A stretch of 64,000 bases of DNA from Sinotaia quadrata (taxonomy: Eukaryota > Mollusca > Gastropoda > Architaenioglossa > Viviparidae). The notes under the pieces were generated by a model. The model saw only the letters and a program-made list of their open reading frames with translations, searched no databases and was not told the origin of the DNA. Where the stretch lies: contig CM054177.1 in NCBI GenBank assembly GCA_028829895.1, positions 75,003,163 through 75,067,162 of the forward strand, in the 5' to 3' direction. Positions 53,401-59,400 of this stretch are shown here, one piece after another; within the stretch, counting starts at the first letter, position 1, and each line of letters opens with the position of its first letter. Made by a program: the position numbers and the translations under genes.

Positions 53401-56400
53401 CACTTATTTGTCAATAAAAGTGCTTTGTATCTTAGTAGTATTTCACTTCCAGAAATAAAAATAAGTGAATGGAACTCTTTGGTGAACCAATTCTATTGTC
53501 TCTACTGTATACTGAATTAATTCCAATCAAAATGATTAATCAGAGAATGCAGTATTAATATTTCAAATTACACACAACAAAAAAATGAAGAGAAAAAAAA
53601 ATATACTAGCATATTTTGAGACTGAAGCATTGAGGACTAAGGTGAGTAAGGTATTTTAAAAATAAAGAACGTTTTTAAAATAGAGAACAAATATACATTT
53701 TTTTAATTAAAACAAATCATTTCTTTGTTGTGAGAATGCAAAAGTCAGACAGAACCCATGTGAACATTGAAAATCATTCACCATCTTAAACTGACAAGAT
53801 CAAACTCTGTGGTCATATTGGAATACACATTCTGTTTTGTTTTGTTTTTCACTTTTAGTATAAATATGTTGATTTAATACACCAGAATGTATACTTGAAA
53901 GAGTAAATTTAATGACTATACAAATAGATTTTTTCTTTTGTTTTTGCATACTGAAATATTACAGCAGTCTTATTGGACATCTGAAAAGCATATAAATTTA
54001 TTGAATTTTAGAGAAACTTTACAGAAAGATCATTTATGAGGTGTATGATCTTCTAGTACCAACAATATAAAATATTTTAGCTTCATGAGTGAAAAAGTGT
54101 TTATACGATGCATGTCTAATTCTGTAAAGACAAGATATACAACTAAACATCACTGCATGCTTTATAAAGATCAAAATATTTCTTCAGGTGTGGTGATAAC
54201 TCACAGCAATCTCATGTGTGGTATGTCTGGTCAATGTGAACGCATTCCAAATCTTGGGTAAGACCTTTTGTGCTAATTCTGAGTTGTTTTAAAAATAAAG
54301 TCATAAACCTATGTTTGCACCACTTCCAGCATCCTATTTGATTTATTTCATGAGCATTGTGTCAAACATCTTTAATGCTGTCACTTCTTCATACATTCTT
54401 GCACACACACATAATAAACTTTTTTTTTTTTAAATTAACGAAAATGGAATTGGTTACCAATAAATTTTGCCATGTAAAATCTTTTCTTGATATGTTCTTA
54501 AAAACTAGTGTGAAACTTACAGGCAAAACTGTTTCTTACACTGCATTTTTCATGTTCAGGTCCTCAGTTTATCTTCTTGAATGCCCATAGGTAAATTTTA
54601 TGAGTACTTTTCCAAATCATTTTGACCACAGATATGATTTACTCATTTGCTATGTTGTAGGGAAATCATTTCATTAATTTAGTGTTTGGTAGAATTTTAA
54701 TTTTATTCCTACTTTGATTAACTCATGCTGAAATCACTAAATTTAAGTTTGTTGGGGTGTTTTTCATTTCAGCCAACCAGATATCTACATTGGATACTTA
54801 CCGCTGGCTCACGTCCTGGAGCTTAGTGCAGGTGAAATGTTGCATTTTGTGGAATTGTAATCTGGATCCTTAGTGAAGGGATTGTAAATAGGAGAGAATT
54901 ATAAGATACTTGGTTAGATGTTGACCAATTTTGCTTGTGTGCATTATAATCTGGATCTTTAGTCAAGGGATTGTAAATTGGAGAGAATTATAAGATGCTT
55001 GGTTAGATGTCGACCAGTTTTGCTTGTGTGCATTTAATCTGAAGCATTAGTCAGGGGATTGAAATGTGGCATCTATAAGTAAAGAAAATTATAAAGTATT
55101 TGGTTGGATGTTGATCAGTTTTGTTTCTGTATATGAATTATTGTTCTCATGATTTCTCCATATTGCAGAAATATCTTGCATGGCTCATGGGGTGTGTATT
55201 GGTTACTCTTCACCACTTACTCTCACTGATCAGGTAATTGTGTTTCTTTGAAAACAATCATTTCATTCTCTTTCTCTGACCTTTCTCAATTTCTCCGTCC
55301 AGCCCTTTGTCCCTCTCTCTCTCTTACGCTGAAGCATGCACACACATACACATTTATACACTTTGATCCTTAAACAGTTTATCTTGGTAACTCTCACTCT
55401 GATTCCTCCATAATAAAACACCAAGTGGTGCAAGAAATCTATGGATCCCTGACAGTTTTGACATACATTTATGCTCTTACAATTTTTTACATTCATTTTT
55501 GTAACTTTCACTCTCTTTATGATGCAGTACCAAGCTGCTTATCAAATCTATAGTCCTTTGATAATCTGAATCATCTTTTTAACTTCTTGAATTTTTTGTC
55601 TTTTTGTTACTTAAATACTATTATGGTTTGAAAAGTTCTTAAAAAATGAGAACCATCTTGAAAAGTACTTGAATTTTATTTTGTCCTTGAAAAGCATTTG
55701 AATTTGCCTACAAACCCTTGAATTAGTTAAGAAGTCCTTGATTTTTATTTTAAAAGAAATATCCCACCCCTTCTTCTCCATCAGTTTGCATATATATATA
55801 TATATATTTATTTTAAATAAAATGCTGTGAAAACATTTGCAGTGTGCGTAACTATAAATACATGTGAATAGGTCTAACTGACTCAGTGGAATGCTTTAAA
55901 CTGTATCAAATACAGATTTTAATACCACTCATGCTTTGACAATTAAACATTAAAGGCAGTGTCAGGTGCTGTGGTAATTTACAGTAAATTTGTTAACTTA
56001 AAAGACCCATCAAGAACAAAATATTAGAACAAAGTTAACAAATATTTAGACTTTTAGACAATTATTGAGACTTTAGGACACTCAAAAACTGTTGAGAGAT
56101 TATTCAACATCCAGCCTGGCACATTCATCCACATATCCAGTTAAAAATTGCTGTGGAAACTATACATTGTTTTTGTGTTTTGAGTTCTGTACATTGTTTT
56201 GTGGTTTGATTTTATTTACAGTTCAGCAAGATAGCTGTACATTGTAGTTTTGCTTTGTTTGCAGTCCAGTAAGATATCTGTATATTGTTTTGTTTACAGT
56301 CCAGTAAGATATCTGTATATTGTTTTGTTTACAGTCCAGTAAGATATCTGTATATTGTTTTGTTTACAGTCCAGTAAGATATCTGTATATTGTTTTGTTT

Positions 56401-59400
56401 ACAGTCTAGTAAGATATCTGTATATTGTTTTGTTTGCAGTCCAGTAAGATATCTGTATATTGTTTTGTTTACAGTCCAGTAAGATATCTGTATATTGTTT
56501 TGTTTACAGTCCAGTAAGATCAAGAGAGGCAGCAAAGGAGATGTCTCTGTCTTAAAGCCCACACTGGTCGCTGCAGTACCAGTAAGTGCATAATTAATTA
56601 TTTTTTCATTAATAATATATGTCTGCCTTGAACCCTCATAGATTGATACAGTACCTTAAATGCACATTGATCATTATTCAGTTGAAATGTTCATAAGTCT
56701 GAAGTGCAAAGCCAATAAATGTATATGGAATGCTTTTCATTAATACTTGCTGTCTATGGAAGATGACAATGAAACATTGAACCAGTACATTTTTGTTTGT
56801 TTGATACATTTAAGATGTTTTTACAAGCCAGGGTTGTGCATTTTGCAGATTTCGTGAGGATATCAACTTTCTTCTACATTTATATTTGGTTTGTTTCTGT
56901 TGTTTTCTTTTATATCAATTTTTGTCTGTCAATAAGTTAAGGTAAGACTAATTTTCATTTTAGTTAGTTTTGATTATGTGTATTTTATGTGCGTGAGTTC
57001 TGCTAAACTATTGTAACTTCCATCCCTTTTTTTGCATAGGTATACTATTTTAAGGTTGAAAAGACATGTTTGTGAATGATGTTCATATGTCTTTTGGAAG
57101 AGAACAGCATGTTGATCTTACATAGTTGCATGGCAGCCACATCATTGTCATTCAGACACATTACTGCATCTGCACAAGCAGAAATGGTTAACAGTTAGCA
57201 GATAAGTATAAACAAATAACAGATGACACACCAAGTTCTATAAGAGTTGACTGTATTTTGTTCACTGCTTAATGAGAGGAGCATGAGAATGCACCTAACC
57301 ATAACAGAGGGGGTAGATTTATTTGCTGAAGACCTGACACTGCTTCATTGTGTGAAAATACTTACTACATTGGTTTGAGTCACAAATAAATGGAATTTTT
57401 CTGTATAAAAGTTTGTTGTTGTTGAATACTTACCTGAGTCATGCTTTAGAAGTACTCATAATCTCTGTCCATATACAATATACGAGAGTAAATAGCCTAT
57501 AAATTTAGCCTCAGGGATCTTTGCTGCCTTCTAGTACTCTAGACAAAGTAGGTGTTTTCTCACTGCCTATTGGTATGTATCTGTATGTATTTTATTGCCA
57601 AAGAGAGAAAACTTAGCATAAGAGTTCACACCAAAGGAATTGATAGCAGCAGCTATTGTTGACCTTTAATGCAGATGATTAGTGATGTGGGACTCCATTT
57701 ATCATCCCATCCCCTTTAAAAACAACAAACATTTTATGGTTGATGAAGAAAATGTATGCTGTTGTCACATGATGTCATCCTATTGTACTTGGTAAATGAC
57801 AAAACAGTAAGCAAAGGATATCAAGCCTAACCACTCTGGAGGTCCTTGTCTAATTTATGGTATTGAGTTTGGATTGACTTTTTACCCTTGAGTGAGAAGG
57901 ATCATGGGGGATTCTCATCCAACATTTGTGAAGGTCTTGCTATTCCCAGTCCATCCAGGAACAATGGGTTTTAATACAAACTTCCAACTGCCCAATGTCA
58001 ACAAACTTACCAGATGGGTATGTGCATAAGGCTCTTCCAGCTTCACTGTTTTTCAACCATTTGTTTTTTGGGGGGATTCAAAGGGACATCTCTCTTATAA
58101 CGGGCATGCTGCTAATAAATTTTATTTATCATTTTTCTCCCTTGGAGTTTATGTCGACCCTTTACAGACTCAGGCGGATGCTTGTAGAACTCTCTGATTC
58201 CTCACAGATGCTCTTCTTATAAGGAAAAATTCACTTTACTTCGAGAGAAAAACTTTTTTTCCATCCTACAACCAGATATCAAATATCAGCAGTAAGTGCA
58301 CACCCAGCAATGAAGTGAAAATATGTTTTAGTTTGTACACAAATTTTTAATGCTCATCTATAGTTTTAATGTGGTCTTTCAGTCAGTGCAGACTAATGAA
58401 AAGAGATTGCAGCATCGGTGGTATTGCCTGTCATATAGCAATACACATTAATTTAACTACAATAATTTTAGTGAGCTTTCAAGCAATTTTATTTAATTAT
58501 CACTAATTTAAATAGTAAATCAGCAGTTTCATTCATAAAAATAACTTAAATTGATTGTGTGGTACAAACAGTCGATTGATATCCACAATTTTTTCTTTGT
58601 TTTTTTCTCCACTGGATAGCAAAATGACAAAATCATTGACTAAAATAATGAACTTGAATAGAATAAAATAATATACAAAATAAGAATTAGAATAAAAATT
58701 ATACCTTGTGAATGGAAGTTCTGATATTATTTTTAAGTAAATGATATAATTTTGACTCGTACATCATATAATATAACTGCAAAGGACCTTAATATTTCAA
58801 GAGAACTAGTAACAAAAGCAACTTCTGAAACAAACTGGTACATTACAGAAATGCCAGTTTCTTTGTTTTTGTTTTTTGTTTGTTTTTGTTTTGTTTTGTT
58901 TTTTTTTGTGGGGGAGGAGTTGTGTTGTTTTGAGGGGTTTTTGTTGGGGTGGGGAAGTAGGGGTGGGGGTATTGCTCCCAAAATCTCGCATTCCTTCTTC
59001 CTTCTAGATAAACTCTGAGCTGTGTTGGAAATGTACCAAATTTTTTTTTTTTTTAACTTATAGAAAACTGAATATATTAACTGAATGAAAGCCATCAAAA
59101 TTACATTTTTGTATTTATTTTTTTTTTTTTTTTTTTTTTGGGGGGGGGATAGTTGACTCTCACTAAATTGGGTGAAGTTTTTGTAAAATACAAGCATATT
59201 ATCTGCAATAGAATAAGTTCTTAAGGTTAATTATTTCTGTACTAAGGACCACAATAAACAAATGTTCATTTTAAATACATTGCTTGTACATGTAATAAAA
59301 CTAATATTGTCAATAACCTTGAAAACAGAAATTACTAATAACGTAATAAGTATGTATTATTTTATTAACATTAATTATATCTACTTGCATTCTTGCCTAG

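Follow-up and report, generated by a model that had tools for sequence, protein, structure and literature searches.

In lancelet genes, minisatellites that extend across intron-exon borders have been described as 'mirages' and, in the excerpts of the reports consulted here, are said not to disturb splicing (PMC3087553, PMC3902484); Adh, TnC and PGBD5 are cited likewise in these excerpts. In the literature that we found the name is applied only to lancelet genes, and the structure itself is already known there. We describe an array at the border of intron 9 and exon 10 of an ACSL3/4-type gene, in a 64,000-nucleotide stretch of gastropod-like mollusc DNA (the window), which would place a structure of the lancelet type in a mollusc. 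The array is present in the sequence, and we consider it probable that it is a young 3' splice-site minisatellite spanning the border, with the last acceptor mainly used and some leakage into decay.

The likeness to the lancelet mirages is close. Each unit combines intronic (24 nt) and exonic (11 nt of exon 10) sequence of the real border, and the units are of minisatellite size (35 bp), with a homogenised core in which six of seven are identical and a diverged 43-bp edge. The excerpts likewise describe tandem units that span the border, as in BflGb6, where they join the 3' end of an intron to the first part of the exon, with splice signals copied in many units and a homogenised core with excluded edge units. 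The differences are that the lancelet cases concern another phylum and other genes, with units of 10–72 bp in Adh3 and 150–160 bp in the globins against 35 bp in ACSL, and that the ACSL core units are more alike than the 81–100% given for BflGb6, for an array known here from one sequence.

Four other systems share part of the architecture, as far as the consulted parts of each report describe them. Human F7 intron 7 holds 37-bp repeats, the first of them containing the 5' splice site; this case resembles our array in unit length and in the copying of a splice site but lies on the donor side, a mirror image of the ACSL acceptor side (PMC6627357); PMC3778950 held nothing relevant to the F7 repeats. 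UBC has dual-specific splice sites in a tandem array at exact spacing, but these are AGGT sites in coding sequence, 228 nt apart, frame-preserving and several of them used (PMC10809524), whereas the ACSL sites have AG and GT 4 nt apart, are intronic, lie 35 nt apart and break the frame. In human segmental-duplication genes, exon-intron borders may carry minisatellites, with a unit length near 30 bp, that can change splicing; they were found through paralogue comparison, and an array of one acceptor is not described in the parts consulted (PMC2812944). TERT VNTR6-1 is an intronic 38-bp minisatellite whose allele length is tied to splicing and decay, but it is linked to G-quadruplexes, and a copied splice site is not mentioned in the parts consulted (PMC11830802).

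Structure of the array

The gene was placed in the window by tblastn with seven mollusc homologues (47336..61379; this and all features below are on the forward strand). Its coding exons 1–13 within the window join into a single open frame of 504 aa, each of the 12 intervening introns beginning with GT and ending with AG, and the translation, a long-chain acyl-CoA synthetase, matches Pfam PF00501 (E 9.1e-73). Coding exon 9 (55169..55233, phase 0) ends in CTGATCAG directly before GTAATT, and coding exon 10 (56510..56581, 72 nt, phase 0 on both sides) is followed by the donor GTAAGT; both were placed by homology and the joined frame, which also gives intron 9 (55234..56509, 1276 nt) and intron 10 (56582..59522, 2941 nt). 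The AG at 56508..56509, the last of the array and its sole frame-keeping acceptor, is probably the productive 3' splice site of exon 10, because homologues have no extra residues there: none of the 120 listed (of 6162 matches) shows one at the Q–S junction that starts exon 10, and none of the 120 appears to be conspecific with the window.

AG acceptors occur at exact 35-base spacing at 56264, 56299, 56334, 56369, 56404, 56439, 56474 and 56509. Repeat detection and unit alignment give seven complete 35-bp units (TCCAGTAAGATATCTGTATATTGTTTTGTTTACAG; 56265..56509), identical except for the one at 56405–56439, which differs by two substitutions. Each holds a polypyrimidine tract, the AG and the first 11 nt of exon 10, the intron end contributing 24 nt, and the sequence bears out the preliminary description on this point. 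That description also counted eight copies and one decayed. The eight AGs at 35-base spacing stand, but strictly the array consists of seven 35-bp units and a diverged 43-bp unit (56222..56264), which ends in an acceptor-like TTTGCAG and agrees at 30 of 43 alignment columns (z 7.2 when compared with 300 shuffles). A possible older decayed unit (56184..56221), ending in an acceptor-like ATTTACAG, aligns weakly, agreeing at 25 of 39 columns (z 2.9), and the older remains upstream of the 43-bp unit in general, with z values of 2–3, are insecure. The identical units thus adjoin the exon, and the longer, diverged one lies at the upstream end.

Tandem Repeats Finder (TRF) reports 56250–56520 with a period of 35, 7.7 copies and 97% matches. 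Searched with at most three mismatches, a 27-base pattern of the unit has seven occurrences in the window, whereas 100 shuffles yield none. The same pattern had no exact match in viral and prokaryotic contigs, a search from which the window's own and very near genomes were possibly excluded; since the contigs were those of viruses and prokaryotes, this says little about animals. Among the matches listed by a literature search whose coverage leaves out most subscription journals, none reported a mollusc mirage.

In the window as a whole, 24 arrays (period at least 20, merged by hand) make up 8.4% of the sequence, and random placement would put 2.1 of the 25 ACSL borders inside an array, against one found. 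At the other 24 borders the best copy within 600 nt reaches at most 19 of 29 matches, compared with 29 of 29 here; duplicated borders are therefore not a general feature of ACSL.

Consequences of using the upstream acceptors

All eight upstream acceptors, 56221 included, lead to a premature stop. For six of them the stop comes ahead of exon 10; from 56439 it is the TAA at 56515–56517, within the 11 exon bases common to the unit, and from 56474 it lies deeper within exon 10, ending at 56555 (positions derived from the distances between stop and junction). The stops fall 26–309 nt before the exon 10/11 junction, with two further junctions downstream in the window, and every upstream acceptor therefore has the form expected in AS-NMD, an alternative site whose use introduces a premature stop ahead of exon junctions. 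This confirms that the upstream copies are frame-shifted or stopped, now including those previously untraced, and the tracing agrees with the earlier placement of a TAA in the exon when reading from one unit upstream and inside the repeat from two or three units upstream.

The acceptors had also been said to look equally good. Scored with a weight matrix built from 11 sites, five upstream acceptors equal 56509, and the duplicated sites are indeed similar in strength, but two score higher (56439 and 56221) and one lower. The suggestion of a special poison design is not supported: every upstream acceptor is poison in 90% of simulated random introns, in 94% of random 35-bp tandem arrays, and in 100% of arrays in which nothing but the exon start and TTTACAG is retained. 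Since 90–94% of random and random-tandem sequences do the same, poisoning is no sign of design.

Choice of the last acceptor

The preliminary description proposed that branch-point placement might pick the last AG. The same 24 nt free of AG precede the AG in all seven 35-bp units, also in the one at the true site, so there is no local mark on the last copy, and placement of the branch point as the selector is not supported. The branch-point consensus is yTnAy, and a scan for it finds one match per 35-bp unit, TTTAC, 3 nt before the unit's own AG and thus 38 nt before the next one, with other AGs intervening; the GCAG unit has none. We infer that exon context is a more plausible selector.

Where two 3' sites are at least 20 nt apart the upstream one is preferred overall, a preference that is significantly reduced, though no reversal is stated, in the exon-definition class with introns longer than 250 nt (PMC9225289). 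Introns 9 and 10 both belong to this class. Because a reduction is all that is reported, real leakage is to be expected from proximity alone, and with eight competitors it would perhaps be heavy. Two upstream acceptors, 56439 and 56221, outscore the true one, which together with the published upstream-site preference speaks against the reading we favour.

In that reading, of a border-spanning minisatellite, slippage or unequal exchange in the DNA would have multiplied a 35-bp stretch into a tandem array. Selection on the exon may anchor the 3' end of the array, leaving upstream copies free to decay. The last AG would mainly be spliced, because it alone is followed by the full 72-nt exon, lies nearest the donor across that exon and is flanked by long introns. 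The upstream acceptors probably leak at some rate, and the leaked mRNA, in which a premature stop precedes three exon junctions within the window, would presumably undergo decay.

Alternative readings

Copy-number tuning of ACSL is possible but unsupported. It would mean that the array diverts some pre-mRNA to poison acceptors and that the number of units sets the ACSL level via NMD, as might be argued from the eight poison sites out of eight, from the seven of eight that score at or above 56509, from the overall preference for upstream 3' sites (PMC9225289) and from the human TERT intronic 38-bp VNTR, which by the parts of the report consulted alters splicing and decay according to allele length (PMC11830802). 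However, poisoning is nearly automatic, as the simulations show, and the consulted excerpts report the lancelet mirages without splicing disturbance or aberrant mRNA (PMC3087553, PMC3902484); we regard this rheostat as rather unlikely. A further form would make unit number an inherited, fast-mutating dial on ACSL output: every added unit would bring another poison acceptor into competition with the site at the exon, allele length would in this way set the productive share of splicing, and the array would renew its acceptors by expanding from the exon side; this we find distinctly unlikely. That the array, or its number of units, is an assembly or sequencing error is very unlikely: near-identical tandem repeats are often the place for such errors, but simple stutter is not expected to give one unit two private substitutions or to leave a diverged 43-bp unit at the edge, and the reading frame and the flanks of the array are undamaged.

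Two further readings turn on the donor-like GTAAGA. This motif, read from the sequence at the start of exon 10 (56514..56519) and copied into each 35-bp unit, had been noted four bases after the AGs, and it is indeed found there at eight of nine acceptor positions, with GCAAGA after 56221. It is coding sequence, lying within the Ser-Lys codons AGT AAG and carried along in the copying. One unit might then sometimes be included as a 39-nt in-frame cassette exon, running from the acceptor of one unit to the donor of the next and adding 13 residues after Q351, so that a new exon and intron could arise from the array. Six of 120 acceptor-donor-acceptor combinations stay open, all of this one-unit form and ending at 56509, and the lancelet authors proposed mirages as a route of intron gain, according to the excerpts (PMC3087553, PMC3902484). 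Against this, none of the 120 listed homologues, none of them apparently conspecific, has an insert at the start of exon 10, one of the six combinations requires a 31-nt intron, and the insertion point is inside the AMP-binding domain, which makes the cassette highly improbable. Stepwise splicing, with each unit serving first as acceptor and then as donor, seems to us scarcely credible. The unit donor, CCA before GTAAGA, does score 8.49 in seven of the eight GTAAGA copies, a value higher than 10 of the gene's 13 own donors reach in leave-one-out scoring. At a recursive splice site, or ratchet point, the AG directly abuts the GT, and each step restores a donor without leaving any nucleotide behind. 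Here TCCA separates the two and 4 nt would be left behind at each step, so GTAAGA is not a recursive site and the resemblance suggested earlier fails; 1, 2, 4, 5 or 7 steps lead to a stop and only 3 or 6 stay open, a step between neighbours requires a 31-nt intron, and the Ser-Lys codons explain the motif.

The array is also a natural experiment on acceptor choice by the spliceosome, since its seven acceptors, spaced at 35 nt, are all but identical and are distinguished solely by the number of preceding units and by the sequence that follows. ACSL transcripts would tell the effects of branch-point scanning, intron proximity and exon definition apart.

Two classes of splice site were considered and set aside. 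Dual-specific sites use AGGT as both donor and acceptor, and AGGT is absent from the unit sequence. In tandem alternative splice sites, such as NAGNAG, the competitors are 2–12 nt apart according to the consulted part of the TassDB2 report, and the 35-nt spacing of the array lies outside this range. At TCCAG there is a weaker AG 5 nt further in, scoring 4.97 against 10.18, which alone would fit the tandem class.

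Anatomy of the array

Thirteen coding exons of an ACSL3/4-type long-chain acyl-CoA synthetase gene, located by tblastn with seven mollusc homologues, lie within 47336-61379 on the plus strand. With canonical borders the exons yield a single uninterrupted 504-aa reading frame (GT-AG in 12/12 introns), which matches Pfam AMP-binding with E 9.1e-73. Among the 120 proteins listed of 6162 matches, the closest are a transcript protein (P0001) and those of Pomacea (P0004), Batillaria (P0002) and Babylonia (P0005), at approximately 76-77% identity over 474-504 aligned residues; Pomacea, Batillaria and Babylonia are caenogastropods. 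The gene thus most likely belongs to a snail close to these, whose own protein appears to be absent from the 120 listed. Coding exon 10 (56510-56581, plus strand, 72 nt, phase 0 at either end) lies between intron 9 of 1276 nt and intron 10 of 2941 nt.

The array at the intron 9/exon 10 border is confirmed. Directly upstream of exon 10, on the same strand, stand seven 35-bp units (56265-56509), six of them identical, each opening with the exon's first 11 nt and continuing for 24 nt to end in TTTACAG (TTTGCAG in one unit). Tandem Repeats Finder (TRF) reports 7.7 copies with 97% matches, and a 27-base unit pattern (at most 3 mismatches) occurs 7 times, while none of 100 shuffles contains it. A diverged 43-bp unit precedes these (56222-56264, plus strand; 30/43 columns; z 7.2 relative to 300 shuffles). 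Possible older remains further upstream are insecure (z 2-3). The acceptor coordinates in the preliminary description were exact; its eight copies hold as eight AGs at exact 35-base spacing, but the full units number seven. The variant unit (56405-56439, plus strand, two substitutions) starts with TCTAG and ends in GCAG, which makes 56439 the top-scoring acceptor of the array, exceeding 56509.

Probable choice of the last acceptor

The reading frame is preserved from 56509 and from none of the other eight acceptor positions. The resulting Q351/S352 junction is spanned by all 120 homologues listed of the 6162 matches, and none of these 120 carries an insertion between the positions matching Q351 and S352. 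Judged from these alignments, homology fixes the position of the predicted productive junction at 56509, but not its frequency of use.

To score acceptors we used a weight matrix built from the gene's 11 acceptors outside the array, a set small enough that two of its own members score below 0 when left out. The nine array acceptors take ranks 1-8 and 10 among the 76 AGs of intron 9 and exon 10. The earlier impression that all upstream acceptors look equally good is right for the five that tie with 56509 at 10.18, but 56439 (11.89) and 56221 (10.94) score higher and 56264 (8.98) lower. The AG-free stretch is 24 nt in every 35-bp unit, the last included, 15 nt at 56264 and 35 nt at 56221. The scores are similar and this stretch is the same in each 35-bp unit, so 56509 does not stand out by its local signals; its distinguishing features lie on the 3' side, namely the body of the exon and how far away the donor is. 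PMC9225289 treats introns of this length class as exon-defined, finds the overall bias towards upstream 3' sites significantly reduced under exon definition, and concludes that splicing favours the sites that lie closest across the exon. Exon definition is most likely what selects 56509. The overall upstream 3' site preference in the same text counts against a clean choice, and some leakage to upstream acceptors is likely.

Poison acceptors and recursive splicing

The claim that the upstream acceptors are poison, i.e., that their use leads to a premature stop, extends to all eight (56221 and 56264 to 56474). The stop falls at codon 368-378, before exon 10 for six acceptors and inside it for 56439 and 56474, and lies 26 to 309 nt upstream of the exon 10/11 junction; the window contains two more junctions after that one. 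Such stops would suit a regulatory reading, in which the array tunes ACSL through nonsense-mediated decay. However, the poison property is expected of nearly any sequence. Of 3000 random introns generated from intron 9's first-order composition, 90% have eight poison acceptors out of eight; tandem arrays of random 35-mers have all seven poison in 94% (n = 3000), and arrays keeping only the exon start and TTTACAG are fully poison in 100% (n = 3000). Unit lengths of 33 and 36 give 51% and 57% (1000 trials each). The effect is nearly automatic because 35 is not divisible by three and the exon start AGTAAG contains a shifted-frame TAA. We give the regulatory reading a low probability; the mechanism is probably ordinary.

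The donor-like CCA|GTAAGA, at 8.49, outscores 10 of the gene's 13 own donors when these are scored leave-one-out, and had been likened to a recursive splice site. That likeness fails: GTAAGA is the exon's Ser-Lys coding sequence copied into the units, and, lying 4 nt downstream of the AG, it would leave TCCA behind at each recursive step, so that among one to seven steps the frame is open at 3 and 6 only. Only 6 of 120 acceptor-donor-acceptor combinations are open, every one a single-unit 39-nt cassette, encoding the same 13-residue sequence in four cases and a one-residue variant in two. Besides recursive steps in multiples of three, this cassette is the sole in-frame alternative among the combinations tested.

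Comparison with known systems

The anatomy is that already published for lancelet genes as 'mirages', minisatellites spanning an intron-exon border, and on this ground we class the array as a putative mirage-type minisatellite. PMC3902484 states that the Adh and TnC mirages generate no aberrant mRNAs, and adds PGBD5. Undisturbed mRNA and length polymorphism are two further features of the published cases. A mirror image is human F7, where, according to PMC6627357, the number of 37-bp repeats varies, the intron 7 donor lies in the first repeat and the most upstream 5' site is the only one in use. UBC (PMC10809524) and the border minisatellites of human duplicated genes (PMC2812944) are looser relatives. 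No mollusc mirage was found among the open-licence papers listed.

Minisatellites in the window

After array rows of period 20 or more were merged by hand (periods 2 to 18 excluded), the window holds 24 minisatellites, the ACSL border array included, covering 8.4% of it. Scattering the 25 placed ACSL borders randomly would put 2.1 of them inside an array, against 1 observed; on this background a splice border lying in a minisatellite is therefore unremarkable, and the interest lies in the ACSL gene tolerating it. For the 24 other borders, no close copy lies within 600 nt. An 89-bp repeat (54858-55065, 2.4 copies) ends approximately 100 nt upstream of exon 9, a second minisatellite near an ACSL border.

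Other arrays include 57 bp x 12 (33975-34663), 75 bp x 7 (32327-32854) and 33 bp x 22.6 (30654-31374). Its unit being divisible by three, the last is open in two or more frames for over 100 codons, and we saw no evidence of a gene in it. On the minus strand, an SH3-domain exon (14417-14605; Pfam PF07653, E 5.6e-13) is preceded upstream by an open stretch (24537-25172) with no Pfam match in the scanned 180 aa; together they look like part of a putative PIX-type Rho-GEF gene.
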